Shown piece by piece: positions 29,403 to 50,724 of a stretch of DNA of 64,000 nt (position 1 is the first letter of the stretch; each line of letters begins with the position of its first letter). Location of the stretch: positions 1 through 64,000 of the forward strand of contig MGUU01000010.1 of NCBI GenBank assembly GCA_001800135.1, given 5' to 3'. Under the pieces are notes generated by a model. It had not been told where the DNA came from. It did no database searches and worked only from the letters and a program-made list of their open reading frames with translations. Position numbers and translations under genes: made by a program. This DNA is from Elusimicrobia bacterium RIFCSPLOWO2_02_FULL_39_32 (lineage in GTDB: Bacteria > Elusimicrobiota > Elusimicrobia > 2-02-FULL-39-32).

Positions 29403-29523
29403 TGGCATATACCTCCAATATCGTCTTTTAGTTATGATACTACATGAGATCATTTCTTCTCAAGTGAAAAAAGATTGAAGAGCAGAGCTTGTTATAGGAT
29501 ACTCCACAGTCATTTGAGAGAGA

Positions 29524-32500
29524 TCACTGCTGCAACGCCAATACTTCTCTTGCATGCAAAGTATCTGTAATCTCTTTACTGATCTCAACTACTTGCAAAT
29601 GAGACAAGATCATATAAATCTGGATTTTAGATTCCCATTTGTTTTTGTATCTGTTCATATTGTCTGTAAAGAGTGTAAGAGATAGTTCTTTTAAAGGATC
29701 GGTTGAGCCAACTCGTTCTTTTATTTTATTAATTAATATCTCATTCACATCATCTGGATCCATTTCTATAGAAGGATCAATTTCTGGTTTCCCTTTTTGT
29801 TTGATTAAAGATATAAGGTCAGTTCTAGTTCCTACCACAAAATGAATGTTTTTGTTGAGTTGTTGAGCTACCTCTAAATGACCTTGATCTTCTAAGGTTC
29901 TTTTTACTCTTTCAATTGTTTCAGGGTTTAGAGAGTCTTGGTTGGTGATTAGAGGCACAAGAACTCCCTTAATGTTTTCTGTTTTTCCTGACCATGCTTT
30001 AACTATTTGTTGAGCATTGAGCTCAATCTGATCTTGTGATGGGTTAGGGTTAGAAACATCTATCGCTGCTGTAACTCTATGGTTTTCTAGTTCTTGTATA
30101 GTATTTAAACTATTTACTTCTTTCATATTAGATTTAAGAGAAATCAATCTTTGTTTAGATTTAGTTTGAGCTGATTGCCAGAGTTTTCTGACCATATCTC
30201 TCTGTAGTTGTGACACTTTAGATTGAGGAGCGACTATAGCAGCAAACCCTTCATATGCCATCACCATCTGGTCTTTGGTGAGAGCAGATATTCCCTGTTC
30301 TGGAGTTATCGCCAAATCTCTATACAAACTATTCTGAGCTAGAGACTCTATGACCTTTTCTGACCATACTCCAAATGATTCTCTCATCTTGTTTTGATCT
30401 AACCTAGATAACCTCTCTAAACTATGTATAAGTTGAGAAACTTCTTGTTCAGAACTATATCTTAATATTCGCAACAGAGCTATTCTCTCATCATCCAGAT
30501 ATGATCGTTCACCCAGATTATTTAGATCACCGAGTTCATCAAGATTAGATAAATCAGATAGAGCTGGAACAGTAAGAGGTTCCTCTCCTTTAAATAGAGC
30601 AGCTATTTGCATGATTTTAAGAGATTGTACTAGGTTTTGGTATTGATCTGACACCTGCAATCTTTCTAAAGATTTATAATCCGCTACTTTATTTAATAAA
30701 CCGCCTCTTATGATCTCTGGAATCAGGTTCTTAGGGAAAGATACTCCCTGTTTCTTTTTAGTTTCTAGTTCATGAATCAGAGACTTTACATTCTGTTCTA
30801 TGAGTGGTTCTCTGGTATCTCTTATAAACCCAACAAAACTTTTGACGATTCCAAACCTAACAAAACCTCTATCTATTACAAGAGATAAATAGCTGGTGAT
30901 TCTAAACAAAAGGTTAGAGAGAGAATGAACAACTGTATTAGGGATCAGCATAGGTAACACCAACAACAGAGCTGATTTATCTAATAAAGATAACTCGTTC
31001 CATCTGTTGAGGTTAAATATTTTACTTTCTATCTCTTTTACTTGAGATAAATGAACTCCAGAGATGAGAGATATAGTTCCTACAATATAAATCAGATATT
31101 TTATATCTGGCATTAAATAACCAGTAAGTACAATGAATCCAATCATAGAGAGCCACACTAACCCAATCCCAACAGCTAAGACTCCTGCTCTCCAACCCAT
31201 AGTTTTATGATCTTGATAGAACTTAAAAGGATTAAATGAATCAAAGAACTCGTACATAGGAGCAAACAGTATTTCTGTACTCCATGAGTAAGGAGATAAC
31301 CCTATTTCTGATGCAGCAGCTCTGGTTTCTGGTAAAGTCATGGCAACTCTATCTTTTGTCATTTCTCTTTTCTGTTTCTGATCTTTTATTGATTCGCTAT
31401 CTTTTCCAGTCTCTTTCCTTTTTGCAGCTGGCTTCTTTGGAAACAGAACTAGTTTCGCTTCTTGAGATTTTATCTTTTGAGCTGTTCTGTACAGTTTCAT
31501 GAACTCATGCCAGTTTTCTGGTTTAAAGTTAATTGCTTTTTTTTCAGAATTCCCGTATCTATGATATACTTTTTCTAACTTTTCTTGATCTTCTTTACTC
31601 ATTTTTGATTGAACAGAATCTATGGTATCCATCATACTTATAATCTGGAATCTGGAGCTGACCTGCACACCTGACTTTTTTAGAGAAATAATATCTTTGT
31701 TTGATATATGGAACACTGTGATCGCAGGACTAAAATGGTTTTTTAATAAATGGTCAAGCGCGGATATTTGAGTAGTTAGTTTGGCGATTTCTTTTTTTAA
31801 TTCAGCGATCTGTTTTTGATCTTGTTTTGTGGATTTTCCTTTTACTTTAAGTTCTTTAAGCTCGTTTTCAAGTATTTCAAGGTCTGCTTCATATTGTTTT
31901 TTTGCATTCTTCGCATACGTTTTTAAATTCTCTTTAAACTTTTTATCCAACTCTGTTTTAAGGTTCTCTAACATCGTTTCAAAGTCTTCTCCTACAATAA
32001 TCTCTCTATCTAAAACAACAAAGAAACTATCTGGCGGAGCTCTAGCAGAAATAGCTCCTTGTTCTGGTTGAGATATGGTGATTCCTTGTCTTTTTAGAGC
32101 AGCTTGCAGCTCTTTATAGACCATCTGAATCACTTCGTTCATCTGCTCATAGTCTAATACTGTATTCATGTTATGAGCTGCTCTAACACTTGCCATTGCT
32201 GCGTTGAGACCATAGTCGGACATTTTAACTAAATAAACATTTTCTTTTTTATTTCCAGGTTTACTCAATCGTTCTCTTAACCCTTGTTCTGTATGCGCGC
32301 CTGTAAGAGCATCTATTCCTTGTGGAATAAGACCCGACTTCTCTGCTTCTAGTTTCTTACGTTCATCCCACACTTTTTTTCTAGTAAGAGCTTTACTTAT
32401 GTTTGCTTTAATCTGGTTTGCCTGTATTTCTGCTTCTTCTCTCACCTTTTCTGCTTCTTTATAGTTTCCTTGACTCGCTAGTTCTGTTGCTTCTTTTTCT

Positions 32501-35500
32501 GAGTCTTCAATCATTTGCTCTTTTGCCTTTTTTACTTGTTCTTCATCCATGAACTTCTCATTTATACCTAACACATACGCTTGGTCTTTGCCATTCTCTT
32601 TTGCTATTTTTAATAGATCATTAGCAAACCTGATTCCCCAACTATAAGACTCTTCTAACCGTTCTGGTCTGATACTGTCTGTTGTAGGGTCTATCCACTG
32701 ATCTTTAAGCCCTTCTATTTGTAGAAGATTCCAATAATCTTCGTGTAGTTTCTCTGCAAGGTACTTTAATTCCTGATCAGCATTCCCAGCTCCCACAGAC
32801 ATTCTAAACTCTACTTTGTATGATCTTACAGCTCCTTTGATGTTTCCAAGTTCAGGGAATATTTCTATAATTTGTTGTGTCATTGCGTTATTTAATTCAT
32901 TAATCTTTTTCTCTCTACTTCTTTTAGTAAATCTCCATATCTTGCCTCTCTCGACTAATAGGTTGTACCCATCCTCATGACGGATCATCATCCGAGCCCC
33001 TTTTAGAGCTTGTAAGGCTTCTACCTCATCATCAGACAACTCTTTCTCTGTTTTGATCTTAAATACCACATACCTGTCATCTAACTCATTTTTAAATCTC
33101 TTAACAGCGTCACCTAAATCCCTTGTGCTAGGCTTTAACAAAATATATTTGCGGAACCAATGGATAATATGGTTGATCCATGTTTCTAGATATTTTAGGT
33201 ACTTATTTTCTGTTTCCAAGACTATAGTCCAATCATCCCATTCTGGAATAAACTCATCTCCACCTACATACGCGTGCACTTGGTTTTTGAACGCTTTGTT
33301 TATTGCATGTCTTACTTTCCTAAACAAGGTCTCATCTTGATGATCAAAGACAACATTATTTGAATCAGATTTAGTTAATCCTCCAATCAGATCTTTGCCA
33401 AAGAAATCGTTCATCTTACTAATATTGTCTATATCTCCTATAGCGAACCCAAATGATCTTCTGCCAGATTCTCCTTTTAGTTTCCCTAATTGTTCTATTC
33501 TTCTTTTTTTGCCTTGTTCTAATGAAGTGAGCGGGTCGCCAACTCCTTTTTTTTGACGATAAACCAGATTTCTAATTAACTCTGAGAGAAATTCACTAAA
33601 AGTTTGGGTTAGTTTTACTACTAAAGCACGAGATTGCTTCGCCTCCTGTCTCTCTCTTTCTCTTTGCTCTCTTTTAGCTTTCTCTGTTTTAAATGAGCCA
33701 ATTGAAACAATGTTAGATTTCTTTTTATCTTTAGAAGGTTCTGCTGTTTCTATAGAGAGCTCTGGAGGCGGAGGCGCTCTGGCATGGATCAGTCCAGCAT
33801 AAGCTACCATGAACTGCGGATCAGCAAACAGGTTCTGAACCTGCTGACCAGAGAGACGATAGAGTCTGGCTCCTTCAGAGCCAGCAAGAACATCTTCTGT
33901 GCGTTTGCTGGTTAGATGAGAAGAGTCGCCTATCATAGAACCAAGAGTTAAAGAGCTGGGTTTACGATCTCCTTTTCCTTCCAATATTTCTAAACTTCCC
34001 TGTAATAAGATATAGACGTCATGAGACTGATCTTCTTTTATAGAGATAATCTCCTCTCCTTTAGATTTAGTGACTTCTACAAAAGAGCCATTTGGATTTG
34101 TTTTTAAATAGTGGATTAGAGCCTGTATCATATTGATTTGATATTGGCTCAACTTTTCTTGATTCAGATGATCTCTTAACCCTTCTTCTAACTGCGCTCC
34201 CTCCTGCGTTTCTCTCTCTTCTCTTGCCTGTTCCCCTCTTTGACCTGACGTGTCTGGTAAAAATTTGGTTGGGAACACGTTTTTAATCATGCCCAATAGG
34301 AACATAAACATTTTTTGCGCAAGTTTTTCGATGATGTTCAATTTCTTATCAGACACCTGTGGTGGAACCAACAGACTTAATTGTTCAATCTGTTCTCTTT
34401 TTCTTTTGTTTAAATCTGTATCTTCTCTTGTATCCACACCCACACGGCTTTCTGCTTCTTTTTCACTCGCATTCACATATTCAATTCCAATCTTTCTGTG
34501 ATTAAACCTCAGACTTTGATACGCAGTCTCCATTCTTTCTAGCTGGAACTTATGAAGTTTTTGTGGAATGTTTCTATTAGAATCATTGAGAACTGCTTGA
34601 ACCACTAATTTCTTAAACATCCCTAACATCCATCTCTTTTCTTTTACAGATTGAGAGAATAGCATTCCAGCAAAGTGCGGGTAGTCTTTGCCATTGTGTT
34701 CTCTTACATAGACTTCCATCAGATCAAATTCATTGTTAGATTGAGATTCAGCTTGTTCTTGTGTAAATCCCTCAACTACTTGCAAGCGATGCGCATAGAC
34801 TTTTTTTGTTATTTCCATCTCTTGGATGAGTTGAGCTCTTACTTTAATAAGAGATTCACCTACTTTTTTGCCATCTTTCAGATAAGCTTCTTCCATTCTT
34901 CTTAAGTACTCAATAAAGAAAGGGTTGGTCTGATACTTATAAAGACGGCTATACGCAACAGAATCAAGGTTATCTGCCATACGAACAAGGAAATTAAGAA
35001 TATCTTGCTTGTTAGAAGCATTACGCAGTTTATGTTTCCCTGTTCCGCGCAACCCATCTTTTGTTACTTCCTCTTTGTCTGATCCATGATCTTTAACTAC
35101 TATCAATAAATCTTGCATTGCGCTCGCGCTGCCTAAAGCGTTCCCATCTAAATCTCTTAATCCAAGAATAAAGTCTAACTGATTGACTAGAGTAGGACCT
35201 CCTTCTTTTCCATCTAATGGGATCTCTGCTAAAGTTACTCCCAAAACTGTATGGTAGCCTTTCTCAGATTTATATCCTTCAGCGATCTTGTCTCCTTGAT
35301 CCTTTATCTGACTAGCAGTTTTGTCCGCTTCATCTATAGCTTTCGTTAATATGCCATACCCTATATCATGCAGCCAAGCAGAAAAGAAAGCTAAAGGAAT
35401 TCCTGATTCTCCATAACTATCTTCTAAATTAGCCTGAATGGTACGAGATGCGGAGATAATGTTCCCCACCTCTTTTCTTACATTTAATGAATGTTTAATG

Positions 35501-38500
35501 CTGTGAGGCACAAATGGCAGCTCTAAATCCGCTTCATCTTGCAGAATCAAGAAATGAAATATGGTCATCACTAATACAGCAGATTCTCTTTGTTTGGCAG
35601 GATCATCTCTTACTTGTTCAAGGTTAAGAAGACGGTCATAATCTTCTAACAAAAGTGACCGAGCTTCTTCCATAGAGTTCGTTCTTGCCTGTTTTAAGTT
35701 TGCATACTCTTTTTTATTTAAACTTTGATTCATTCTATTTGTCATCAAATCTGTTAATTTATCTTTTAATTCATTTGCTAAAGCACGAGCCACCAAAGGG
35801 GACTGCTGCGCTGAGTGCGTCTGCGACGCCTCCTGTAGAGAAGTTTTATTTAAAGAGGCGATATCCTCTAATATGGAAGGAGCGATCCTAGTCATCTCCT
35901 GATTTGCGATTCCCAGCTCTTGCTCTTTAATCTTTTGATTAAACTCATTCTCTGCAACTTCCTGTTCTTGCTGCTGAATCTGAAGATTAAGTTTTCTTTC
36001 TCTAAAACCTGCCAGATTTAGCCATATTCCAATCTGCCTAGTAATAGGATTGTTCCATCCAGCTAAACCAGTTCCAGTTTTACGATCTAGGGAGTTAGCA
36101 GGATTCAAAGATTGAACTGCTATAACAGCAGAGATCAGGAGGGTCCTTATGTTGGGGATCCAATTCACTGGATGAATCCATTCTCTGATCTTGGCAGAGG
36201 GAGTAACGCTTGTAACAGCAGGTTTATCAGCTCCAGCGCTTGTAACCGCGCTCTTACCTGTGGGTGCAGCAGCAGAGCTTGAGGCGCCATCTCTTTTTTC
36301 TTGAGCTTTTTTAAATGAAGTGATTTTAGAGCCTTGGGCTTTTTTGACTGCCGCGATCTGCCTCTCTGGAGGAGAAGGTAGAATGCTAATCTTATTTTGT
36401 GGTGTTATCTGTGTTGGTGGTAAAGCCGCAGGAAGGTCTGGAGTCATCTGTGTGTCTGGTGTTACTAATGGTGTCAAAATTTTAGTAACGCCAAGCCGTT
36501 GTTTTATAGTTACCTTTGTTGAGGGCGGGATTTGAGCAATGCTCAGCCTATACTGTTGAGGCGCAAACCAGTTAAAAACTCCATGCAGCCCGCCAGCTAA
36601 TAGATAGGTGAGCAAGTCTTGTACAATCTTTGAACTAATTTCTAAACCAAAAGGTTGAACCATGTTCTGAATAAATGGTAAAGCATGAGGTAAGAGATAA
36701 GGAGTGAGGAACGATGAGAGAAGGATTGCAGCAGAAGAGATCACCATAGTTGCGACAAATCTAACAATGAATATGTGGCTCTTGCTTGTTTCAAGAGCAG
36801 GAGCTTTAGGTTCTGTTTCTGTTTCTTTAATAAGAGGTGGAGCTCGTGACTCTTCTGGTGTTGTATCTTTATCTTGATAGATTTCATGCAAGAGAGCAAA
36901 TAGAAACGCTCCCACAGGCACGGAAATCCATATTCCTAACACAGGCGCTAAGGCTAAAGAAAATCCTGGCAATCCCCACAACTCTAAAATAGGAATGACT
37001 GTTGAAACAAATAGACGATTATTCAATAAGTTCTGACTAAAGAGTTTTTGCCAGATAGGCAGTACCAATGGGACTATCCAGCGAGCAGTAGCGCCAGCTG
37101 TTTCCAACTGAGGACTCAAAGACTCAGGAGTTTCATTGAGTTGTTCTAGAGCTAAGATTCTGTTTAAAATATCTAGCGGCAAGGTATGGTTTAAATCAGG
37201 TTTTTGTGAGAGAATGATTCTTAACGCATTCACGATCCCGTCGTAAGTTAGAGATCCAACTTTTTCTTTTTCTAACCGGTTCAGCAAACTCATAACAATT
37301 AGTTCGGTTCGTTCTAGCTCACCTTCTAAAGCCATCTTTGCTAACTCTTGGGCCAAACTGGCGATCGCATCTTTTGGCTTAGATTCAGATTGAGTTTGAA
37401 GAAAACGATTTAAATCATTTATTGCCACACTTAATACAATTAATTCTTCCTTTATTTGTTCTACGTTGGAAGAATTAAAATCAGAACCTAGAATCATCTC
37501 ATAAACCATTTTGGTTCTTTTCATATAGGTTAGATTTTCCTTGAGAAGAGCTAAACCATGCTCTACTCCCAACCTTTCTAGAAAAGTTTGGAAAATAAAA
37601 TGATTTTCTCCTAAATCTCCTTTCAAATAACCATAATATTGAATAAGGGTTGGTATAGAATTTCCTAAAGCTATTTTTGGACCGCCTAAATCAATCATAA
37701 CAGCTCGCCCGTTTAATATTAAATTATCTTCATTAATATCCATTGGCATCATTAGAGGAATCATTGGCATAGTGTCATCTGCGTTCTCATCATAGAGAAA
37801 ATCTTGGTTAGGTGTTAGCTTTGCGATATCCAGAAGGGTCTCTATCACTGCCTTGCGTTTCTCTGGACTAAATTGGCCTTGATTTATTAGTTCAGCTACA
37901 GTGGGGCCTTCAATGAATTCTAAAAGAATATAGTCTCTTTTCCCATATTGACCAGAGTCAATCAGTCTTGGAACTAATCCACTATTCCAAAGCCGCTCAA
38001 AATCTTCAATCTCTTCTTCTTTAATTCCTGTCAGTGTTGTTTCTTTGGTGACTCCTAACACCAAATGCACAGTTGGGCTTAAAGAAACTTTAAAGACCCA
38101 CTTATTCATGTTCATGTCGTTTCCTAAAGGGGTGAATGTGATATTAGAGAGTGAAATCTCATTAGAATTAAATGTAACACCTGGAATTTGATTTATTTTA
38201 TGGATGATCGCAGCTAGAGGAGAATCTGATTTTTTTCCAGAAAAAATCAGTTCAACTAATTGTTGCACATCTTTTTTTGCAAGTTCTTGATCACTGCTTC
38301 CTAATGGAGGAAGAAACCCTGTAATCGTCTTGATCTTTGGTTCTGCTGCAAGAGGTGTTGGAAGAGTTCCTGTGATAGAAGCTACAGGCAGACCAGTGAG
38401 AAGCGCAATGGTATTGTAGAGTGAGTGAAGTCCGAAATTAAGGAGAATCCCCATGCCAAATAATTTCAATGATGCAATAATGCCAGCTTGCAAACTTGTA

Positions 38501-41500: not shown

Positions 41501-44500
41501 TTGTCCCTTATAATTTTTTGCAAATAGTTTGGTTCCATAACCTTTTTCATATCCAGTTGTCTTGTTCCCCTTGGCAAAACATCTTTTATGTTTTCAAGCA
41601 AAAGCGCGTATAAGGCAAAATTACGAAATATGGATGGAGGCAATTCTTCCGCAAGTTCATTTAATCTTTCTTCATACGATCCGGGAATTTGGCGCACAAA
41701 TCCAAATGCTTTTTCAAACATCTCATCCACTGGTCCATCATTAAAAAACTGGCGCGCTAAAGAAAGAGGTCTGGCAGGAGCTTTATGATACTTTCTTTGT
41801 TTCCATGCTACGCGGCGCAAATCTCTATAACCCCCATTATCAATCTTTTCCCACTCCAGCACCTGAAATAGCTCTCCGACAAATGCCTTATAATAGGAAA
41901 CAACCGATTCATATTCCCCTGGATCAAACATCATGGGACGCATGCCGATATTATTGGTATCTACTCCAAGATTGCGCATAAAACTTTCAATGCCAATACC
42001 AGAGATCGTCTCATCCCAACTATCCATCCCGCCTATCTGTACGACTCTTAACGATCTCATTTCTTCCATGCTAGGGAATTTGAGACCTCCTTTTTTCTCA
42101 GCATACTCTGGGAGAGCTTTCAGAGCTAAGTATAAAGCTTCGAAATCTTCTTTAGAAAATTTTTCTGGATGATCTAGTCCTTCAAATTCTTTGTATTGAT
42201 CTGTAAAAGGAGGAAGATATCTCTCACTGGTTTGCGCAGTATAGGGGTAAAGATAGGGGTCAAATGAATCTCCTCTGCCCCACTTCTTAAGTTTGGCAAA
42301 AAGTGTTTTAGCATTGTCCGAGTCTCTTTTTAAAAGAACATGCCTCAATATCCATGGGTTCTCGCCAGAACCAATAGAAAAAAGATAGATCAATTTTTGC
42401 ATTGGAAAACTCGCTTGCGTTAGATTCTTGATCCCCATCTCTTTTTCTAAGAGAGCCATGCGCTGATTCATAAATTTTGTAAGCTCTTCAGTCTGAGGCG
42501 CTTTTAGAATTGTGGTTTTTAAGAAACGATCTAGAGGTGTGCTAAAAAATATGCTCGTCTTAAGTTTATGGTCGCTTTTTTTAAGTTCTTGTTCAAAAAA
42601 TTGAACCGCTTCTTCAAAAAACTTAAATTTTTCAACTTCAGTCAGCTGGTAATGGGCAATGAGATGTTCCAATACAGAGACCATCAAATTTTCATAAAAA
42701 TCTCCTGGTTCTCTAAATAGCGCGGCAAATACTTTTAGATCATCCATAAGATCACCGGAAAAATTGGATAATTTTCCATTAGGATAAGATTCTATTTCTA
42801 TTTGGATATATTCAGAAAGCTTGTCTTGATGATAATTGTATCGGGCATCTTTAATTAGATCTACAATAGCCGATTTATCTATTTCACCAGTTTGTGCTAA
42901 TTTTATTAATCCTTGAAGCATCTCCTGATACCTTGTGGCTCTTATAGAATCATTTAACAACAATTTCTCTTGACGTACCAAATAGCCCTTAAGTCCTTTT
43001 GATCCGAAAGATAATTGCTTTAGTTGGCTAATCAGTTGAGGAAGATAAATTTCCCTATTTTTAGGATTTGATTTGAGATGCAGCCATAAATACCAGGCAA
43101 AATCATTGTTGTAAACATGGAAAAGAGTTTTATTAACTGGATCTAGACCATCTTTAACATCTTCTTGTAACTTTGGTTTGACCTGTTTTATTCTTTGCCG
43201 ATGGCTCTCTAATGCAGCTGCCATTTCCAAAATCATTTGAATAGGTATATTTTCTTTCTCTATCCGATCCTCTATCTCTTCCATTACTGAATCAATCCAG
43301 ATTTCAACAAAGTTATCATGTAGAGAATATTGGCTCCCTCTGGATAATCCATAAAACCAATATTTATAGTTAAAATATTCGCTGGATGTGTTGCATTCAA
43401 CTATTGCAGGAAGTTTAATTTTTAGAAGTTTGTGGAGTTGTTCAAAATTAAGATTACGAATTGTATTTTTTAATTGTTCTTTTTGGTCATCATAAACTAT
43501 AGAAGAATATCCGGTAAATCTCTGTATGGATGTAAAAATAAATACATAATAGGGAAGCAGACTTCGATCTTTAGCGACCCACTGATCTGCTTTTAGGTCT
43601 GCCAAGAGGTAAGCGTCTTTAAATGGAAGATCAGCGCTGGTTTTAGATTTTTCATAAGCATAGATCAAAAGGTATTCCAAATCTTCAATGCTTTTCACTT
43701 TATTGTTTAGAAGAAATTTAAAATCATCCAGAGTGTTCATATTTTTAACAGCTTCCCTAAAGTTTAGATTTTGAGAACCCTGCAATATCTCATTTCTTGC
43801 TCCATCAGAAAAAGGAGTTGGTTCTTTAAAGAAACTTCTCCAATAAAAGTTGTTGAGGAGATTCTCTAGTCTTCGGATGCGTTCTTTAATTTGAGGATGG
43901 GTTCCAAATCTCTGTGACAATTTTTTTAAGAAATTAAGGGTTGGATCCTTGCTTTCCTTTTCCAAATCCTCACTTATTCGTTTAAAGAGGAATTGCGCTT
44001 CACTTAAAGCAAACCCAATTTTTCCATTACTTTGCTCGTAAACTTTGTCCAATAGTTTTATTGCTCTCCAATCCGCATCATACTCGTCCGTATATCTTTC
44101 CACATAGGTTTCAGGAATGTCTTTAATTGTTTTGGCAAGATTAGCTTTCCCGTCATCTACATCTTCACGGTTTTGAAGAATATGAGTAATTTCATGCGCA
44201 ATCACAAATGCAAGCGCATCCTTTGCGCCTCCTTTATTTATGAGATATTTCAAAAGTCCCACATTTATAAATATATGGTTAGAATGGGAGAGAATAAAGG
44301 CATTGACCTGTTCAGTTTCAACCAGATGAACAATAAAATAGTTTGGATTAAGACCAGCTGCTTGCAATATAAGATCAGTCATCTCTTTCACTTCTTGATA
44401 AGTTTGTCTCATCTCATCTGATTTATCATCTATAATCCCCAGAGATTCATGGTAATAATCCAGAATGCGCTCGTTTCTTGCTTTTGCGATCTGATACTTT

Positions 44501-47500
44501 TCTTCGCTTTGAGGCACATTCTTAGAGAGGGTATATCCCTGACCAAATGGCCGAGATCCAGGAATCTGAAAAGATCTTTTATCTTCATCCTTATCAGCAT
44601 CAGCGCTAATATCCGCAGCAGGCGCTTTTTGCAGAAATTTTCCTAAAGCAATAAACCCAAATTGTTCAAATAATCTGCCAAGATTATGAACTATCAAAGT
44701 AACAAAAGCATTCCAGCTTGAGTGTAAGACCATATTGGCAATAAGCCCAAACATAAGCGCCTTGCCTAAATTAGAGATAGTCCCAATCCCCCCTGCCATT
44801 CCGTCACCTAAATTAGATATTCCCCCAATCCATGGGAATGAAAAATCACCGATGATTGGGATCGGCATTCCCATCAAAACAAAAATAGCAGGAGCTACCA
44901 ATACCCCTGCTAATATGAAGCCTACTCCAAACAAAACCGCTTTCTGAAGAGGTGTCCTTCCTTTATGCGCTCCGCTAAATACATACGCGCTCGCAAGGCT
45001 CCATGCCACCACTGCTGCAATCGCAGGAATTACTGCTGACATTCCTAAGTTTGAAGCTATGATCCCTCCAGTAACCGCAAAAGAAAAAATTGTGATGCCT
45101 ACCAGTGTCCATTTTCCAGCGTGTTTTACTTCTCCAGCAATCCCTTTTTTAACTAGAAAAGTCTGCGCTAGCATGTTCACTCCAAGAATCTGATAGACCA
45201 CCTCCCAAATCACCCCAAAGATGGTGTAGAGCTTATAAAGGATTGGATGCTTTTTATCAAACTCTATTTCCCTCAGCCATTTATCTAGAATAGAGGCTGG
45301 GATAGTTGAAAACTTTTGGATAAGGTCTTGAATTCTATCACTAGAAAAAATACGGATTCCGCCTGAGCGGAGCGCGTATCTTGTAAAACCTGCTGATTTT
45401 TTAGATGCTTCAACTTGAGTGACTTTAATGCCTTTCTTAAAATATTCATTTAAAACCAATTTAACAATTTCCTCTAGTTCTTTGCCACGATTTTTTTCAG
45501 ATTTTAATACTTCAAAGCAGACTGACAAAAATACCTCCCAGTTTATTTCAGCAACTTGTTTTTGGATAGCAGCCAGCTGCGCTCTTCCCCCTTCATGAAC
45601 CTCATTCGAATAATAGATGGCAGACTCAACAGTGTTATAATGAAAATTGTAATTAAATATTTTCATAAAATTTTGAGCGTCTAAACCTAAACCCTTAAAA
45701 ACATTTGTGAATAAGAACGTATGTATATCTGAAATAAATTCATGAATAATTCCAGCTTTTAAATTATTAGAAGAATAGTTATGTTGGTCCCATAAAATTC
45801 GATGTCCAAGTTCATGCGCGACAATTTGAAAAAATAAAGCTGTTTTTTTCTCCCGGCCTTCTAAAAGTCCGCCGCCTAGAGTAAACCCGCTGGTAGCGTT
45901 GCCCCAATAAGCGCGAACTCTTGCGTTAGAGATTCTTTTTGCGGTCTTGAGGAAATTTTCCGAAGAGGAGAATGAACCCGCTTCTTTTTGCAAGACCAGC
46001 AGGGTCGCCATGACTAGAACTTTAGCTTCTTCATCTTGCAGGTAGATGTCATTAAAAAGCTGTTCAATTTTAGCATCGTCATCGCTGGCAATCGCATCCC
46101 CAATCAGATTTTTTGCTTCGTCTGCAAGCAGTTCGATCATCTCTTCAAATTTATTTTCATTTTCAGCGTGAAAATATTGAGATGAATACCATGTGAAAGC
46201 ATAAATCCTAATTTTTCCTCTAAACTCTTTACTTGAAATAATGTTGTCCAAGAGCGCTTTGCGATTGGGGTCCTTATGGTGACGTAGCAAAATCAGATAA
46301 GCAGTTCTCTCTTTAATTTTCACTTCTTTATTTCTTAAAATTGCAATAATTTCTTCATCTGTTGGATTCCCAACAAAAATCTTCATTAGGATTTGCCGCT
46401 CGTGCTCTGTAAGTTCTGGTTCTAACTTAGAGAGCAGATATGAAATTACTGGCTCGGTTCCCATCTCAATAAAAGGGGTTAAATTGGATATATTTTCCGC
46501 GGCTGCGTTTATATCCCAATCCTCATTTTTAATGACTTCGATCAAGTTATTGAGAATATTCCAGCCGTCTTTATTTTTTTCAAGCTCTTTACTGGAAAGC
46601 GCTTCATAAGCTGTTGAAGATAAGATATTTATTTGAGTTTCAATTTGTTTCATAACTTCTTCTTTTCTCGCTTTAATCTTGATTAAGTACCACTCCTGTA
46701 ACGGTTCAATCGTTTTTTGATGAGCATTAATTGCATTCAGTTTTTTCAATAAGGGATTCATGATCTCTTCCACAAAGTTCTGTGTCCCAAATCTTCTGTA
46801 TGTTTGAGATGTGATTTCTCTTAACTGGTCTAACTCTTTTATATCGTCATAGAGTTTCCAATGAGCAGTTAAAAGCCTAATCATTGTTATCAAAACTTCT
46901 TGATTCATTTCCTCTTTTTTCAATTGATTTTTTAACTCGTTCCACAACAAATTAAATAGACCTCTAGATTTATCGTTTAATATGAAATCTCCATAAATAT
47001 TTTCTATAAGCCCTCGGTCAGGAGAAGATAGCAAGTCTTCTAAGAGAAGAGAATGAAGCTTTGTTAGATGATCCTCCGCAATCATAGATAGGTGAAAAAT
47101 ATTATTGAGTAAATTTATTTCATCATCGGAAACTTTGGATGGATCGAATTTCCTTTGCACCATTAATTTATATAGCCTGTAATTATTTTCTATTGTTATT
47201 TCTAATGCTTTGTGATCAAAATTAAGGTAAGTGCCCAATCCAATTAAAATTCCAATTATAGTTCCTAAATAAGTAGGGTTAAAGACCATCTCATTGACTA
47301 GTAAATTCGGCAGAGATAACCCAATGGAAAGCGCAAAGGTTACTATGCCTGCTCCTGTAAATAGCCCTATTGCTGCGCTGGCAAGGATCCATCTGATTTT
47401 CATCGCATAAAGCGTTTTTTGATTTTCCGTTAGTTTTGGCGATAAGAACGAGAGGATTGGCATCAAAAAAAAATTTAGGAATGACCCCCCAACCTCCAAT

Positions 47501-50500
47501 AAAAATACCCAAACTAATCCATAAGCTTTTTCCAAACCTGCGCCAAATACAACGGAAAATTCTTTAGGAGTGAATGTTAATTGAAATAGAATGTTATTAG
47601 GTTGGATGATGCGGAGGGTGTTTTTAATATTTTCAAAAATTGTACGATCAATCTCCAAAACTTTATAGGACTGCCATTTATCTTCAGTTACCTTTACTCC
47701 AATCGTAGCCAATCCCAGATATTTAGACAGCGATTCAGGAATCCAACCATTGAGATAAGCCCAATTAAAAGCTCCATGCAGGATAGAAGCAGAGAGCCAG
47801 GCAACAACATCTCCTCCTAAAGCTGCACCCACCAAATAACCCACTGCAAAAAGAGTTGCGGGTATTAATCGTAACCCAATATCTTTAAGGCTTCCTTCAT
47901 AGTGAAATGCCGCAAAGATCGGAATAGCTGCTATAAGGAAAATAAAGATGCCTGCATAACTAAAAAGAGACAAATGTAGGAGGTGTGTAATCAGAAGATG
48001 CGGTAAAGTTAAGAATACAGCGCTTTCTAAAGTGGAAGCTCCTATTACAGAGTAAATCTTAGTTTTAAAGATCTTTCCATGGCGATATAAAATGTTCGCT
48101 GCTTTTGGCAAAAATTCTTCTTTGCCTTTATAAATGTTAAAAGTATGGTTACCAAGTTCAACTGTTTTATAAACAGGACCAGAATCTTCTCCTATCCCTG
48201 GACTTACTTTCGAATCTCTATGCGCAATATCATAAGTCAGAAGGCTATTTTTGTGATTTTTTAAACCAAAGAGTTTGACTGACACCACTAACTTCTGAAT
48301 CACTCCTTCTTTATTTCTTGCTTCTTGCAGAATCTTAAACAAAATATCCTGAGTTGTTTTAAATCCATCTGCTGATTTTACTTTTTCCACCCATCCTGAC
48401 TTTTGTTTAGAAATATTATCTTCCATATCTTCATCTATATTGGTTACCTCTCTACCCAATTCCAATACTAATTTAACAATCAATAAAGATTCGCTGATCC
48501 TTTCTAACACACTAAAAATAGGAGACCACTCTTGAGTTTCTTTTCCTATAGGGGTTGATGTGCCTAATGGGGATTTAAGATGGATCCTTTCTCCAGTAAA
48601 GAGTTTTTCTAAAGGAGTTTTATCTCTGCGGAAAATTTCCAGATATTCTGTGCCGCTTCCCTCCACGACCCCTAGTTTTGGAGCCAACACACAATACGCG
48701 ATCTGCTTGCTTTTAAGGATTTCTGTCATGCCAGAGGTATGGAATCCACCGCTCACTAAGACTGCAACTTCATTGGCAGAGTTAGTTCCCTTTATCCCCA
48801 CTTTTTTTAAAAGGTTGTTGACCAGAGCTTGGTTACGCGCGATTCCTGCCTGGTTAAACTCTTCAAATGGTTGTAAAGATTGAATATCTAAAGAAACAAG
48901 TTCGCTGATATTTTTTTTCCTTTTTTGATACTCTGCCCATTCCTCTGGACTTAACTGAAAATGCACTAACTTGTTGAGCAGCTCTAAATCTTGTGCTTTT
49001 TGAACTAACTCTTTTTCTTTAGGATTTTGAATGAAGGATTCAATTTTCTCTTTTTCTAATTGACTGATTTCTTCAAATAACTCTTCACTTTTGATTTTGT
49101 CACTCATCAATACATACCGAATATAGTTATCCATCTGTGGATAGTCAGATAGCTTAACTTTATAGGCTTGACACAAATCCTTTAAGTATTGATAAAACGC
49201 TCCGTAAGAGATATTCCCCACACGATAAGCTAAACTTGCAGAGACTAACTCATTCATCTCTTGTTTTGAAAGTTTCTCTACCAATTCATTGGTTAAAGCT
49301 CTTCTTTCTCGTTCAACTTTGTCAAAATTTAAGGATTCTTCCAAAGATAAAGCCTCCATATACCTTTGAATCATGGAGGCTTTTTGGGGGTTCCATTTTT
49401 GAGTTAGAATTTTAAGAAAAAGGTTTAACTTGATCTCTTCTCTGTTATATTGGCTAATAGCTTTATCAAGTTTTTTAAGTTCCTGATTAAATATATTTTC
49501 TTTAAGCTGCTCAATCTCTTTTTCTAATTTTTTAAGAGTTTGTTTTCCTTTTTTTTCTAATGGCACGGAATTTTTAAATGCCTTGATATGCTTTAGATAC
49601 AAATCTTCATCCTCAACTCCCCAAAAAAGAAATGGCTGGATCATCTCCTCTTTGATTGAGCTTGAGGAGTTATCTCCTTGCTCTTTTACTTCCCCATCTC
49701 TATCTTGAGAGGAAGGTTTATCTGATTTACTTTCTTTTTTTAATCCATAAGTCATCCCTACATATTCTGGACCAGAAATAAAAGATTCTTTTAATAAATA
49801 GTTTGCCACCTCTTTTACAATCTGTTTGTTGGGAAATAAACGATAAAGACTAAAATTAAATGGGCCGGAAGCTCCTTCCAACCCTACAATCAGCCTACCT
49901 GTAGCCCGCGGCGAAAAACTCCTCTCTAAAGATTCAATGATCTTGGCAATGTTCTTTTGAGCTTCTTGGTTCTCATGCACATCCTGAATATGTACAACCA
50001 TAAAATCTCCTGGTTTCCAGCCAGAAGGCAAATAAAGGTCTGTTAAACGAGCATAATGAATAGAAAGGGATTTAAACCAACTTGGCAGAGTTTCTAAACG
50101 AGATTGGACTTGAGACGGTAGTTTGAGATTTGTTTGTCCAATCGTGGTTTTGGGAATAGAGTTGGGTAGAAGATTAAGATTTAAGGATGGAATCTGTGAA
50201 GCTAAACTATTTTCTACTTGTGGAGCTTGAACTTTTGCTATTAAAGTTTCTTCTTGATTCTTGTTTTCTCCTTCTTCTTCAAGGCTGGTCTGTTGTAAGC
50301 GATTAGCTGCTGCTCTTCTCTCTTCCCATAGTTTCGCATATTGCTTCTCTCTTCTGGATTGCGCTACAGGCTCTATCACTCCATACGCTACCTGTATATA
50401 AAAAAAGACTACTGCCATACTTAGGGAAGTAGCGCGCAGCCATGATGAATGATGAGGATGAGAATTATTTTTTATCATAACTTTTGGCAGCCCAACCAAC

Positions 50501-50502
50501 AT
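29524..50502 (-). CDS. Giant multidomain envelope protein, 6992 aa (proteases, UbiB kinase, HD, cNMP-binding, GGDEF)
   Basis: A single uninterrupted 20.98-kb ORF. In order (approximate residues): signal/anchor 21-42 (SLSMAVVFFYIQVAYG); HIQDVHEN domain 130-640 with GLEGA and GGFHTSGM (587), possibly of the EreA/ChaN/TraB type; membrane region 830-1150 with LHGAFN at 908; helical region; zinc motif AHELGH at 1566; membrane module with SGAHKGRT (1848) and LHSSWN (1928); M48 peptidase with AHEITH (2101), EYDAD and THPQIKERI; long unassigned helical region; UbiB/ABC1 kinase 3430-3700 with KVGQ, VVVKIKRPDV, ELDFWQEA, HADPHGGN and IDVG; second SGAHKGRT module (3957) with LHSLYN (4028); degenerate kinase-like DINEDNLI...MIDLGG (4257); membrane module with LHGVFN (4640); Ala/Ser/Pro-rich linker; HD domain (AWLHDIG, 5046); cNMP-binding domain 5460-5570; GGDEF domain with YVGGDEF (5746); degenerate second GGDEF starting DALTG (6065); coiled coil 6190-6250; membrane segments ~6414-6474; C-terminal domain 6800-6992 shared with the 57.7-kb giant. 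The start is uncertain: ATG 50502 lies inside the leader RNA, and ATG 50478 (MIKNNSH) is the likelier one. Function unknown. Confidence 0.85.
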   Translation of the reverse strand: MLVGLPKVMIKNNSHPHHSSWLRATSLSMAVVFFYIQVAYGVIEPVAQSRREKQYAKLWEERRAAANRLQQTSLEEEGENKNQEETLIAKVQAPQVENSLASQIPSLNLNLLPNSIPKTTIGQTNLKLPSQVQSRLETLPSWFKSLSIHYARLTDLYLPSGWKPGDFMVVHIQDVHENQEAQKNIAKIIESLERSFSPRATGRLIVGLEGASGPFNFSLYRLFPNKQIVKEVANYLLKESFISGPEYVGMTYGLKKESKSDKPSSQDRDGEVKEQGDNSSSSIKEEMIQPFLFWGVEDEDLYLKHIKAFKNSVPLEKKGKQTLKKLEKEIEQLKENIFNQELKKLDKAISQYNREEIKLNLFLKILTQKWNPQKASMIQRYMEALSLEESLNFDKVERERRALTNELVEKLSKQEMNELVSASLAYRVGNISYGAFYQYLKDLCQAYKVKLSDYPQMDNYIRYVLMSDKIKSEELFEEISQLEKEKIESFIQNPKEKELVQKAQDLELLNKLVHFQLSPEEWAEYQKRKKNISELVSLDIQSLQPFEEFNQAGIARNQALVNNLLKKVGIKGTNSANEVAVLVSGGFHTSGMTEILKSKQIAYCVLAPKLGVVEGSGTEYLEIFRRDKTPLEKLFTGERIHLKSPLGTSTPIGKETQEWSPIFSVLERISESLLIVKLVLELGREVTNIDEDMEDNISKQKSGWVEKVKSADGFKTTQDILFKILQEARNKEGVIQKLVVSVKLFGLKNHKNSLLTYDIAHRDSKVSPGIGEDSGPVYKTVELGNHTFNIYKGKEEFLPKAANILYRHGKIFKTKIYSVIGASTLESAVFLTLPHLLITHLLHLSLFSYAGIFIFLIAAIPIFAAFHYEGSLKDIGLRLIPATLFAVGYLVGAALGGDVVAWLSASILHGAFNWAYLNGWIPESLSKYLGLATIGVKVTEDKWQSYKVLEIDRTIFENIKNTLRIIQPNNILFQLTFTPKEFSVVFGAGLEKAYGLVWVFLLEVGGSFLNFFLMPILSFLSPKLTENQKTLYAMKIRWILASAAIGLFTGAGIVTFALSIGLSLPNLLVNEMVFNPTYLGTIIGILIGLGTYLNFDHKALEITIENNYRLYKLMVQRKFDPSKVSDDEINLLNNIFHLSMIAEDHLTKLHSLLLEDLLSSPDRGLIENIYGDFILNDKSRGLFNLLWNELKNQLKKEEMNQEVLITMIRLLTAHWKLYDDIKELDQLREITSQTYRRFGTQNFVEEIMNPLLKKLNAINAHQKTIEPLQEWYLIKIKARKEEVMKQIETQINILSSTAYEALSSKELEKNKDGWNILNNLIEVIKNEDWDINAAAENISNLTPFIEMGTEPVISYLLSKLEPELTEHERQILMKIFVGNPTDEEIIAILRNKEVKIKERTAYLILLRHHKDPNRKALLDNIISSKEFRGKIRIYAFTWYSSQYFHAENENKFEEMIELLADEAKNLIGDAIASDDDAKIEQLFNDIYLQDEEAKVLVMATLLVLQKEAGSFSSSENFLKTAKRISNARVRAYWGNATSGFTLGGGLLEGREKKTALFFQIVAHELGHRILWDQHNYSSNNLKAGIIHEFISDIHTFLFTNVFKGLGLDAQNFMKIFNYNFHYNTVESAIYYSNEVHEGGRAQLAAIQKQVAEINWEVFLSVCFEVLKSEKNRGKELEEIVKLVLNEYFKKGIKVTQVEASKKSAGFTRYALRSGGIRIFSSDRIQDLIQKFSTIPASILDKWLREIEFDKKHPILYKLYTIFGVIWEVVYQILGVNMLAQTFLVKKGIAGEVKHAGKWTLVGITIFSFAVTGGIIASNLGMSAVIPAIAAVVAWSLASAYVFSGAHKGRTPLQKAVLFGVGFILAGVLVAPAIFVLMGMPIPIIGDFSFPWIGGISNLGDGMAGGIGTISNLGKALMFGLIANMVLHSSWNAFVTLIVHNLGRLFEQFGFIALGKFLQKAPAADISADADKDEDKRSFQIPGSRPFGQGYTLSKNVPQSEEKYQIAKARNERILDYYHESLGIIDDKSDEMRQTYQEVKEMTDLILQAAGLNPNYFIVHLVETEQVNAFILSHSNHIFINVGLLKYLINKGGAKDALAFVIAHEITHILQNREDVDDGKANLAKTIKDIPETYVERYTDEYDADWRAIKLLDKVYEQSNGKIGFALSEAQFLFKRISEDLEKESKDPTLNFLKKLSQRFGTHPQIKERIRRLENLLNNFYWRSFFKEPTPFSDGARNEILQGSQNLNFREAVKNMNTLDDFKFLLNNKVKSIEDLEYLLIYAYEKSKTSADLPFKDAYLLADLKADQWVAKDRSLLPYYVFIFTSIQRFTGYSSIVYDDQKEQLKNTIRNLNFEQLHKLLKIKLPAIVECNTSSEYFNYKYWFYGLSRGSQYSLHDNFVEIWIDSVMEEIEDRIEKENIPIQMILEMAAALESHRQRIKQVKPKLQEDVKDGLDPVNKTLFHVYNNDFAWYLWLHLKSNPKNREIYLPQLISQLKQLSFGSKGLKGYLVRQEKLLLNDSIRATRYQEMLQGLIKLAQTGEIDKSAIVDLIKDARYNYHQDKLSEYIQIEIESYPNGKLSNFSGDLMDDLKVFAALFREPGDFYENLMVSVLEHLIAHYQLTEVEKFKFFEEAVQFFEQELKKSDHKLKTSIFFSTPLDRFLKTTILKAPQTEELTKFMNQRMALLEKEMGIKNLTQASFPMQKLIYLFSIGSGENPWILRHVLLKRDSDNAKTLFAKLKKWGRGDSFDPYLYPYTAQTSERYLPPFTDQYKEFEGLDHPEKFSKEDFEALYLALKALPEYAEKKGGLKFPSMEEMRSLRVVQIGGMDSWDETISGIGIESFMRNLGVDTNNIGMRPMMFDPGEYESVVSYYKAFVGELFQVLEWEKIDNGGYRDLRRVAWKQRKYHKAPARPLSLARQFFNDGPVDEMFEKAFGFVRQIPGSYEERLNELAEELPPSIFRNFALYALLLENIKDVLPRGTRQLDMKKVMEPNYLQKIIRDNIILEEQKNLLSLAEKIQKHLIWDKKLKEANEESMRYMAGDVVSGQFLATADRRKAEKSQDVLLDPDQYDPNLREPVYVYIPKGFDSSQFTPFQFHVAGGEEAYVEFLIANIFSQSLGSLFKDPSLTFSKKLEHIMALYPRASPIRDQYLDILLESSSFSPQEIIEVISLFSSEALKQKHALKALELEKDLDPNKFKDFDYELERILYYFPDFSYIRDDLLQHFINTRVQHPKQLEKAQNLLLEFQDNVRKEEARKTIFGHDLLKTIFQNYSFKSNQKMEFLLWFMGFENKKPDFLTILEELYRINFDSLRSAGIQDGKHYKDVGKSAFENALSFFLFGDKGILSDPATSSQFLNSIFDSLIPQGADSNRISLFKDIYLSIFSKASESRKEQILKQLFVQMKKLSGEPSLSSEIREAKAVRAFLESLGFVGIKVGQFLASSNLDLPKHIKLELDSLKTKAPALNKGAAFGALEIAFGNFYDTFQSLDEPLGSASIKMVYKATMKDGRKVVVKIKRPDVEKRIEEELQLLSHVLEAMQTELARKKIQLPENMVKKIHELILQELDFWQEAANQKKLKQNIKNRQAPELSLGFLSMLKRWIPGSGSPSQFTVYVPNSTEVKNNLVMIEELIDGVPVSDEAAIKAMGIDPSKAKEAAAEELLKEIFIDGFFHADPHGGNILVSENRALSFIDVGLMGSLSKQNRETLLQLIIFVQSGSIQNLPFIPKTFGLPNSEDIARLLEKMNQNGRIRISLNKVKGFLAHSQNFTERLLYLLNLVEEAGGTLPDELITFNKALGTAGYLLEHLTPEGIARVLFPQDQQQAPSASIADKKIKEWIERSTKNIKNPILRAVVSAALAVLYVGYTIFGVNWEALYFIPIVGQKLHQSLVKAEIASEVAPIRKTDLLSMKGLVLLGLRIGAIIGFASLFVNLPITILTVPIVVPMVVQWALKSSYVFSGAHKGRTEEEKKILRVVGFTLAAAMFVPAILFMLGIQIPFVGDVGTITSLQAGIIASLKLFGMGILLNFGLHSLYNTIALLTGLPVASITGTLPTPLAAEPKIKTITGFLPPLGSSDQELAKKDVQQLVELIFSGKKSDSPLAAIIHKINQIPGVTFNSNEISLSNITFTPLGNDMNMNKWVFKVSLSPTVHLVLGVTKETTLTGIKEEEIEDFERLWNSGLVPRLIDSGQYGKRDYILLEFIEGPTVAELINQGQFSPEKRKAVIETLLDIAKLTPNQDFLYDENADDTMPMIPLMMPMDINEDNLILNGRAVMIDLGGPKIALGNSIPTLIQYYGYLKGDLGENHFIFQTFLERLGVEHGLALLKENLTYMKRTKMVYEMILGSDFNSSNVEQIKEELIVLSVAINDLNRFLQTQSESKPKDAIASLAQELAKMALEGELERTELIVMSLLNRLEKEKVGSLTYDGIVNALRIILSQKPDLNHTLPLDILNRILALEQLNETPESLSPQLETAGATARWIVPLVLPIWQKLFSQNLLNNRLFVSTVIPILELWGLPGFSLALAPVLGIWISVPVGAFLFALLHEIYQDKDTTPEESRAPPLIKETETEPKAPALETSKSHIFIVRFVATMVISSAAILLSSFLTPYLLPHALPFIQNMVQPFGLEISSKIVQDLLTYLLAGGLHGVFNWFAPQQYRLSIAQIPPSTKVTIKQRLGVTKILTPLVTPDTQMTPDLPAALPPTQITPQNKISILPSPPERQIAAVKKAQGSKITSFKKAQEKRDGASSSAAAPTGKSAVTSAGADKPAVTSVTPSAKIREWIHPVNWIPNIRTLLISAVIAVQSLNPANSLDRKTGTGLAGWNNPITRQIGIWLNLAGFRERKLNLQIQQQEQEVAENEFNQKIKEQELGIANQEMTRIAPSILEDIASLNKTSLQEASQTHSAQQSPLVARALANELKDKLTDLMTNRMNQSLNKKEYANLKQARTNSMEEARSLLLEDYDRLLNLEQVRDDPAKQRESAVLVMTIFHFLILQDEADLELPFVPHSIKHSLNVRKEVGNIISASRTIQANLEDSYGESGIPLAFFSAWLHDIGYGILTKAIDEADKTASQIKDQGDKIAEGYKSEKGYHTVLGVTLAEIPLDGKEGGPTLVNQLDFILGLRDLDGNALGSASAMQDLLIVVKDHGSDKEEVTKDGLRGTGKHKLRNASNKQDILNFLVRMADNLDSVAYSRLYKYQTNPFFIEYLRRMEEAYLKDGKKVGESLIKVRAQLIQEMEITKKVYAHRLQVVEGFTQEQAESQSNNEFDLMEVYVREHNGKDYPHFAGMLFSQSVKEKRWMLGMFKKLVVQAVLNDSNRNIPQKLHKFQLERMETAYQSLRFNHRKIGIEYVNASEKEAESRVGVDTREDTDLNKRKREQIEQLSLLVPPQVSDKKLNIIEKLAQKMFMFLLGMIKNVFPTKFLPDTSGQRGEQAREERETQEGAQLEEGLRDHLNQEKLSQYQINMIQALIHYLKTNPNGSFVEVTKSKGEEIISIKEDQSHDVYILLQGSLEILEGKGDRKPSSLTLGSMIGDSSHLTSKRTEDVLAGSEGARLYRLSGQQVQNLFADPQFMVAYAGLIHARAPPPPELSIETAEPSKDKKKSNIVSIGSFKTEKAKREQRERERQEAKQSRALVVKLTQTFSEFLSELIRNLVYRQKKGVGDPLTSLEQGKKRRIEQLGKLKGESGRRSFGFAIGDIDNISKMNDFFGKDLIGGLTKSDSNNVVFDHQDETLFRKVRHAINKAFKNQVHAYVGGDEFIPEWDDWTIVLETENKYLKYLETWINHIIHWFRKYILLKPSTRDLGDAVKRFKNELDDRYVVFKIKTEKELSDDEVEALQALKGARMMIRHEDGYNLLVERGKIWRFTKRSREKKINELNNAMTQQIIEIFPELGNIKGAVRSYKVEFRMSVGAGNADQELKYLAEKLHEDYWNLLQIEGLKDQWIDPTTDSIRPERLEESYSWGIRFANDLLKIAKENGKDQAYVLGINEKFMDEEQVKKAKEQMIEDSEKEATELASQGNYKEAEKVREEAEIQANQIKANISKALTRKKVWDERKKLEAEKSGLIPQGIDALTGAHTEQGLRERLSKPGNKKENVYLVKMSDYGLNAAMASVRAAHNMNTVLDYEQMNEVIQMVYKELQAALKRQGITISQPEQGAISARAPPDSFFVVLDREIIVGEDFETMLENLKTELDKKFKENLKTYAKNAKKQYEADLEILENELKELKVKGKSTKQDQKQIAELKKEIAKLTTQISALDHLLKNHFSPAITVFHISNKDIISLKKSGVQVSSRFQIISMMDTIDSVQSKMSKEDQEKLEKVYHRYGNSEKKAINFKPENWHEFMKLYRTAQKIKSQEAKLVLFPKKPAAKRKETGKDSESIKDQKQKREMTKDRVAMTLPETRAAASEIGLSPYSWSTEILFAPMYEFFDSFNPFKFYQDHKTMGWRAGVLAVGIGLVWLSMIGFIVLTGYLMPDIKYLIYIVGTISLISGVHLSQVKEIESKIFNLNRWNELSLLDKSALLLVLPMLIPNTVVHSLSNLLFRITSYLSLVIDRGFVRFGIVKSFVGFIRDTREPLIEQNVKSLIHELETKKKQGVSFPKNLIPEIIRGGLLNKVADYKSLERLQVSDQYQNLVQSLKIMQIAALFKGEEPLTVPALSDLSNLDELGDLNNLGERSYLDDERIALLRILRYSSEQEVSQLIHSLERLSRLDQNKMRESFGVWSEKVIESLAQNSLYRDLAITPEQGISALTKDQMVMAYEGFAAIVAPQSKVSQLQRDMVRKLWQSAQTKSKQRLISLKSNMKEVNSLNTIQELENHRVTAAIDVSNPNPSQDQIELNAQQIVKAWSGKTENIKGVLVPLITNQDSLNPETIERVKRTLEDQGHLEVAQQLNKNIHFVVGTRTDLISLIKQKGKPEIDPSIEMDPDDVNEILINKIKERVGSTDPLKELSLTLFTDNMNRYKNKWESKIQIYMILSHLQVVEISKEITDTLHAREVLALQQ

Positions 50503-50620
50503 CCCCGATTTGCTTTAGTTCGGGATTAGTCTTGTGCCCGCATCTTTAATGCAGGCCCGCCATTCAAGGCGGGGCTTTGCGTACTCTAGCTTTCGCTAGA
50601 GGTTGCCTTTATCGAGTTAC
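50486..50620 (-). ncRNA. Candidate structured leader RNA resembling a c-di-GMP-I (GEMM) riboswitch
   Basis: On the minus strand, AAAGGCAACC is followed by the hairpin CTCTAGC-GAAA-GCTAGAG and then TACGCAAAGCC (50607-50573). This reproduces the GEMM core (GGCAAACC, GNRA-capped stem, GACGCAAAGCC). Further stems follow: CCCGCC/GGCGGG, CCTGCAT/ATGCGGG and ATCCCGA/TCGGGGAT, ending GGGCTGCC, near the start of the giant gene. The second half does not follow the GEMM consensus closely, as two hairpins intervene before CTAA. No terminator is seen, so control would be at translation. The class is a hypothesis; the presence of a structured leader is better supported. Confidence 0.42.
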
Positions 50621-50631
50621 TATAAAGAACG

Positions 50632-50658
50632 CGCGTAAGAATGCTAAATTCTTACGCG
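50632..50658 (-). promoter_or_regulatory. Perfect 11-bp hairpin in the leader of the giant gene
   Basis: CGCGTAAGAAT and ATTCTTACGCG flank a 5-nt loop a few bases after the predicted transcription start. No T-tract follows, so it is more likely an mRNA 5' stability or protein-binding element than a terminator. Confidence 0.6.
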
Positions 50659-50673
50659 TTCGATCATACAGTA

Positions 50674-50702: not shown

Positions 50703-50724
50703 GGGGGTAAAAAAAGTGTTGCAG

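Follow-up and report, generated by a model that had tools for sequence, protein, structure and literature searches.

The 64,000-nt window analysed here (positions 1 to 64,000 of contig MGUU01000010.1 from Elusimicrobia bacterium RIFCSPLOWO2_02_FULL_39_32, a bacterium from groundwater) contains, on its reverse strand, an open reading frame (ORF) of 6,992 codons at 29524..50502. This giant is one of 20-odd paralogous giants, and the unit to explain is the family. Its members combine common ends, purifying selection along the whole length of those that have orthologs, modules gained and lost in frame, retained catalytic residues and a loss of cysteine. We tentatively favour the view that the ORF encodes a giant exported multi-enzyme whose modules would be active outside the cytoplasm of the producer, perhaps on another cell. 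Support is good for the frame and the family, whereas localisation and function are what we infer.

The frame is real. It has a single stop codon, at its end, and each of the five alternative frames over these positions carries 317–614 stops, with the longest open run at most 121 codons. Codon-position guanine-cytosine (GC) content is coding-like in all 24 segments of 300 codons, and every motif named in the earlier note is present, in agreement with that note's claim of one uninterrupted, non-spurious frame that keeps meaningful motifs. The start is probably M9 (position 50478), judging from an alignment of the N-termini of the paralogues. Scans for promoters and terminators within the ORF found no clear excess over shuffled sequences.

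Residues 1–700 of the protein have matches in 20-odd other very long ORFs of the 2.52-Mb source genome. A profile of the head finds 22 copies in that genome, 24 in a sister genome (G001) and 7–39 in 18 others of the class; the remaining 21 of 41 genomes have no match. The census was made on genome stretches, from which 21 head-bearing ORFs were extracted for the 22 head copies. These ORFs are 2,027–13,470 amino acids (aa) long and together occupy 374,634 nt, or 14.8% of the genome; 11 of the extracted giants exceed 5,000 aa. At loci of other Elusimicrobia the head again lies near the N-terminus, and the best 79 relatives of the head in public genomes are all from Elusimicrobiota. On that ground we rejected Omnitrophota as the host, a candidate that papers on giant ORFs had brought up.

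In the N-termini of the family, a basic stretch precedes a hydrophobic core, which leads to a typical signal-peptidase site (e.g. PFAQA, PFAEA) and then, in 20 of 25 cases, to the motif WxERR. The N-terminal ~500 residues appear to be a Tiki/ChaN-type domain. The head (aa 141-660) has a predicted alpha/beta core that is broken by a long helical insertion of about 290 residues (AlphaFold2 (AF2), predicted local distance difference test (pLDDT) 79). The Tiki catalytic set is found in 21 of 21 heads: position 174 is D in 20 and E in one, and H176, E209, R556 and H588 are invariant. This order (acid-x-His, Glu, Arg, His) is that of the Tiki-fold active site, which in RRSP is formed by E3900, H3902, E3930, R4001 and H4030 (PMC6254334). 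Matches to ChaN (PF04187) are weak and confined to 5 of the 21 heads (best 3.8e-5), with none for the focal head at E<=10, and a Foldseek search of the head against the PDB gave no match at E<=0.001, long helices dominating the matches. The head is like the Tiki/TraB/ChaN/EreA superfamily in its residue order and its alternating strands and helices, but unlike it in its helical insertion, its weak Pfam ChaN matches and its lack of a PDB fold match.

The last ~260 residues appear to be a common tail. Its final ~85 residues are recognised at or adjoining the C-terminus in at least 15 of 24 giants with leave-one-out profiles. Of 24 held-out sequences, 16 scored above 6 bits when real tails were used; with random internal stretches as the control, the corresponding counts were 0, 1 and 0. 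An iterative profile of the tail had instead picked up the helical portion of the head. The tail is predicted to be an alpha/beta domain (pLDDT 80), and its fold search returned no significant PDB match and none among viral structures. It is commonest in the source genus (15 + 17 copies) and thins quickly beyond it. Therefore, the family at large is recognised by its head, and this branch of it by its tail.

What lies between these ends? The earlier note described a fusion of proteases, a UbiB kinase and HD, cNMP and GGDEF modules with a signal or anchor and membrane segments. This is what we find, although family membership, the Tiki/ChaN-type head and the common tail had been missed. From the N-terminus to the C-terminus, the features of the focal protein are as follows.

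29524..50502, reverse strand: giant ORF, 6,992 aa, start perhaps M9 at 50478 (single stop)
50374..50478, reverse strand: Sec signal-peptide-like N-terminus ending AYG/VIEP, then the family WxERR motif at aa 59 (alignment of paralogue N-termini; heuristic scan)
48523..50082, reverse strand: Tiki/ChaN-like head domain, aa 141-660, with D174, H176, E209, R556 and H588 (21-sequence alignment; AF2 pLDDT 79; weak PF04187 matches in 5/21 heads)
47308..48018, reverse strand: hydrophobic cluster 1, aa 829-1065 (hydropathy)
45283..46065, reverse strand: HELGH metallopeptidase-like module, HELGH..HEFISD at aa 1563-1592 (motif; no Pfam match)
44680..45249, reverse strand: CPBP-like membrane module, aa 1752-1941, also present in the 13,470-aa paralogue (similarity and hydropathy; CPBP likeness by eye)
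43633..44535, reverse strand: M48 peptidase module, HEITH at aa 2103 (Pfam 6.8e-11)
39370..40128, reverse strand: UbiB/ABC1 kinase module, aa 3459-3711, with Lys, HADPHGGN and Asp kept (Pfam 9.9e-48; solved ABC1/COQ8 relatives)
38371..39036, reverse strand: second CPBP-like membrane module, aa 3823-4044 (similarity and hydropathy; CPBP likeness by eye)
37393..38223, reverse strand: APH-like kinase fold, aa 4094-4370 (sequence read by eye; no significant Pfam match)
36688..36981, reverse strand: hydrophobic cluster 4, aa 4508-4605 (hydropathy)
34321..35955, reverse strand: HD-domain region, aa 4850-5394, with HDIG at 5045 and ADNLD at 5176 (motif; 44% identity to the paralogue at C16:363358)
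33823..34062, reverse strand: cNMP-binding domain, aa 5481-5560 (Pfam 3.9e-5, below cut-off; paralogue 3.7e-11)
32443..33555, reverse strand: GGDEF domain with an insertion, DIDNISKMND..GGDEF, GGDEF at aa 5747 (motif)
31549..31839, reverse strand: second, degenerate GGDEF-like region without the GGDEF motif (Pfam DEDDh_C 1.8e-5, below cut-off)
30904..31191, reverse strand: hydrophobic cluster 5, aa 6438-6533 (hydropathy)
29527..30309, reverse strand: conserved alpha/beta tail, aa 6732-6992, ending ...LALQQ (leave-one-out hidden Markov model with control; AF2 pLDDT 80)

A domain-by-domain profile search, as the earlier note had proposed, separates these calls. Pfam recognises the M48 module (aa 1990-2290), with its HEITH zinc site inside a match that covers just positions 5-79 of 186 in the profile. 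It also recognises the UbiB/ABC1 module, which has KVGQ (aa 3433), VVVKI (3509), HADPHGGN (3669) and DVG replacing DFG. The cNMP-binding domain falls just short (24 bits against a cut-off of 27.5), and HELGH and HD are motif-level calls with no Pfam match in the focal protein. GGDEF has no Pfam match at E<=1, despite its GGDEF and DIDN..ND motifs. Identity between one paralogue and the focal protein is 44% and 35% for the HD-cNMP stretch and 24% for the GGDEF stretch. A sequence search of the first half of the protein against the PDB gave no match. The motifs behind the implied nucleotide signalling are in place, but the signalling role itself is doubtful, given the signal peptide, the lack of cysteine in the last 4,622 residues, the missing Pfam GGDEF match and the second GGDEF-like region without its motif.

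The same kinds of module are shuffled across the giants. The M48 and UbiB modules, in the focal order, occur three times in the 13,470-aa paralogue and also in two further paralogues. Furthermore, aa 1953-3823 of the focal protein recur at ~50% identity in the genome of another family (G012), where they follow an N-terminus resembling a signal peptide and a head that matches weakly. The G012 homolog appears split into two ORFs, but the break coincides with a run of Ns and gives no evidence of a frameshift. In a 6,540-aa paralogue, HD, cNMP and GGDEF stand in a different order. Pfam matches in other giants include isocitrate lyase, malate synthase, AceK, glutamate dehydrogenase, fructose-bisphosphatase, triosephosphate isomerase (TIM), GAPDH, independent phosphoglycerate mutase, pyruvate phosphate dikinase, SecA, an AprA-type methyltransferase, PP2C, ARMT1, patatin and others, and M48 modules found there by similarity also carry HExxH. 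TIM and SecA are also present as ordinary standalone genes. Isocitrate lyase is found just in a giant in both species, and all ABC1/UbiB matches in the two genomes (G000 and G001) belong to frames longer than 2,500 codons, with no standalone UbiB gene found.

The SecA module of a giant has GEGKS, DEVDS and GRGTDI intact. A simple motif search had suggested loss of Walker A, which we rejected since the alignment shows GEGKS. Beside the normal SecA, a second SecA motor core lies at aa 2137-2704 of a signal-peptide-bearing 4,429-aa giant (L049/L048, G000:C25); it is 35% identical to the normal one and keeps Walker A. Tandem TIM-like repeats occupy aa 1100-1720 of a 4,084-aa giant (L052, G000:C8): the first repeat lacks the active-site His, the second has GHSE and AYEP, and a third begins GNWKMN.

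Cysteine has almost vanished from these proteins. The focal protein has 4 in 6,992 residues (47-99 expected) and none after residue 2370. Mean cysteine content is 0.122% in 25 giants, compared with 1.42% in other ORFs without a signal-like N-terminus and 0.67% in other ORFs with one. It is 0.143% in the giants of the sister genome, and in other Elusimicrobia it is 0.317% in head-bearing ORFs against 0.916%. Several of the surviving cysteines are, from their motifs, catalytic: KKCGH of isocitrate lyase holds one of the 2 in a 6,135-aa giant, SCTTG, a GAPDH-like active-site motif, one of the 5 in the 4,084-aa giant, and CEADCIFC, a radical-SAM-like cluster motif (SAM, S-adenosylmethionine), three of 8. 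Type 5 secreted proteins are in general poor in cysteine (PMC8151025). The near-total loss of cysteine together with the kept catalytic residues therefore argues for exported chains that carry working enzymes. The signal peptide and the cysteine loss point outside the cytoplasm, without locating the giant at the cell surface.

Orthologs can be recognised in the sister species for about 14 giants; identity is mostly 77-91% across long blocks, and whole modules have been gained or lost in frame between the two. For eight pairs the ratio of nonsynonymous to synonymous substitution rates (dN/dS) is 0.19-0.26 at a synonymous rate (dS) of 0.19-0.45. Every 300-codon segment is below 0.55, and hence there is constraint along the whole length of the orthologous giants. 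Internal stops or frameshifts, which the earlier note had named as what would refute its claim, are answered for the family, as the orthologous giants stay open in a second species at a dN/dS of about 0.2.

How might such a protein work? The architecture would be a Sec signal peptide and WxERR, a Tiki-type hydrolase head, interchangeable enzyme and membrane modules, and an alpha/beta tail. The chain would be exported through Sec and could be retained at the envelope by its hydrophobic clusters, perhaps also by its tail. The modules would then act outside the producer's cytoplasm as linked hydrolases, kinases and signalling or metabolic enzymes. The weakest step is the site of action, which may be in the cytoplasm or on the surface of a prey, host or partner cell. 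Another cell would fit best because UbiB, SecA, isocitrate lyase, GAPDH and radical-SAM enzymes need ATP, metabolites or reduced iron-sulfur clusters. It is somewhat unlikely, in our judgement, that this lineage exports a large set of cysteine-purged chains of working housekeeping-type enzymes (glyoxylate-cycle and glycolytic enzymes, a SecA motor, UbiB kinases and proteases) that are used in or on other cells.

Several observations weigh against an exported multi-enzyme. Enzymes that depend on cytosolic cofactors are odd outside a cell, and no secretion route is tied to the family; TolC-like OEP proteins are present, with nothing linking them to it. Some modules are degenerate, such as the first TIM repeat, and the membrane segments are hydrophobic clusters called by crude hydropathy. 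The focal giant is an accessory gene without a close ortholog. The syntenic place in G001 lacks it: the neighbours at 51552-63548 and 22263-24593 adjoin there with 2.7 kb between them, and ordinary genes are 87-98% identical. For its own middle, selection is presumed from the paralogues and from the G012 unit (~50% identity, aa 1953-3823).

The main rival is a membrane-bound enzyme set that faces the producer's own cytoplasm. The giants would be a membrane-anchored metabolon in which the N-terminus is an anchor, or just the head lies outside, and modules between transmembrane clusters sit on the cytosolic side, channelling metabolism or signalling. This would suit modules that need ATP, cyclic nucleotides, isocitrate and SAM, with ATPase and catalytic motifs intact, and a chain with several hydrophobic clusters; isocitrate lyase and UbiB folds, confined to long multi-domain frames in both species, could serve normal metabolism. 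However, it leaves unexplained a tenfold cysteine loss that extends to the kinase, HD, cNMP and GGDEF modules, the signal peptides look cleavable (AxA before WxERR), and TIM and SecA have normal standalone copies. We consider a metabolon doubtful. An assembly chimera or a chance open frame can be set aside almost entirely. The genome is a single metagenome-assembled genome and the focal gene has no full ortholog, but stops fill the other five frames, the head, tail and module order recur in paralogues and other genomes, and sister giants are under purifying selection.

A different possibility is a polyprotein whose Tiki, HELGH, M48 or CPBP-like modules cut it into separate working enzymes. Several protease-like modules do lie in one chain, and the M48 modules of other giants keep HExxH. 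Against this, several paralogues have no recognised protease besides the head, and the CPBP-like modules seem, on reading the sequence, to lack the usual glutamates. We regard self-cleavage as unlikely; it is compatible with an exported multi-enzyme and does not exclude it. Equally improbable is that the enzyme folds are reused as inert pieces from which a giant surface coat or adhesin is built, a role that has been proposed for the giants of Omnitrophota. The proteins are giant, signal-peptide-bearing, membrane-rich and poor in cysteine, the phylum is known for giant genes (PMC10066038, PMC12057145), and some modules, such as the first TIM repeat, are degenerate. Nonetheless, catalytic residues are kept, including cysteines in otherwise cysteine-poor chains, and a Pfam scan of the focal protein found no adhesin, adhesion or carbohydrate-binding domain.

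Giants in Elusimicrobiota and neighbouring phyla are already known (PMC10066038, PMC11573180, PMC12057145). In Omnitrophota, "Ca. Velamenicoccus archaeovorus" has a protein of 39,678 aa (PMC10066038). The Omnitrophota giants are likewise very long single frames with many transmembrane segments, from a neighbouring phylum, and a predatory or symbiotic role has been proposed for them (PMC10066038). In contrast to the giants described here, they are described with few annotated domains, as poorly conserved, or with adhesion domains; in the family analysed here, recognisable enzymes stand between a defined head and a defined tail, and its members are conserved from one species to another. One survey counted the huge proteins of Elusimicrobia and could assign no COG to them (PMC11573180), and giant genes were noted in another study (PMC12057145). 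The head-enzymes-tail family is probably part of what was counted. Those surveys give numbers rather than architecture, and we did not find the head, the tail, the cysteine loss or the enzyme content described there. Nor did a literature search that excluded preprints and most subscription papers find a description of the family. MARTX toxins, with their Tiki-fold effector RRSP (PMC6254334), are also giant exported multidomain proteins with several enzymes, including a Tiki-fold hydrolase. However, the focal giant has a Sec-type signal peptide and mostly housekeeping-type modules, and RTX repeats and the cysteine protease domain are absent from its Pfam scan. The analogy is functional only.

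Giant bacterial proteins have mostly been counted and are little understood because they lack recognisable domains. This family offers recognisable modules that appear catalytically intact, defining ends, orthologs with measurable selection and a cysteine fingerprint that points to a compartment. The function of the giants thus becomes testable module by module. Why would metabolic enzymes, even a SecA motor, be built into signal-peptide-bearing chains? Export for use in or on other cells, if true, would amount to a metabolic multi-effector system that resembles neither the known toxins nor the known adhesins.

Around the focal gene, synteny with the sister species delimits a lineage-specific block, and a second family member lies close by.

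24594..51551 (27 kb), no strand: block present here, with 2.7 kb of other genes instead in the sister species (synteny comparison)
25919..29035, forward strand: 1,038-aa signal-peptide ORF adjoining the giant, inside the lineage-specific block (ORF scan; synteny comparison)
57465..63548, forward strand: second family member, 2,027 aa, with the same head and tail and another middle (similarity; G001 ortholog at dN/dS 0.26)

The 27-kb block holds the giant, its 1,038-aa neighbour and a VapBC-like pair at 50765-51479; this toxin-antitoxin-like pair, adjoining the giant, may be a sign that the block is mobile or addictive. In G001, a relative has a similar head joined directly to the equivalent of aa 4457-4891, after which the contig ends. 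In the same genome (L175, G001:C24, 161-3618), 195 bp separate an ortholog of the 1,038-aa neighbour (56%) from a 70-codon match to aa 4854-4943 of the giant; the match stands in a short frame and is likely a remnant.

A second group of long ORFs has repeated GGDEF-like matches (L056, L057, L058, L059 and L047, on contigs C12, C15, C17, C27 and C11); several lie at contig ends and are perhaps broken by repeats. Two large ORFs (G000 C10:79715-85474 and C16:4818-9545) end in a FlgD-like or type IX-like sorting tail (GxxVASGVYF). Three consecutive forward-strand ORFs of the window (3068-7033) have prepilin-like N-termini and are probably minor pilins of a type IV pilus.
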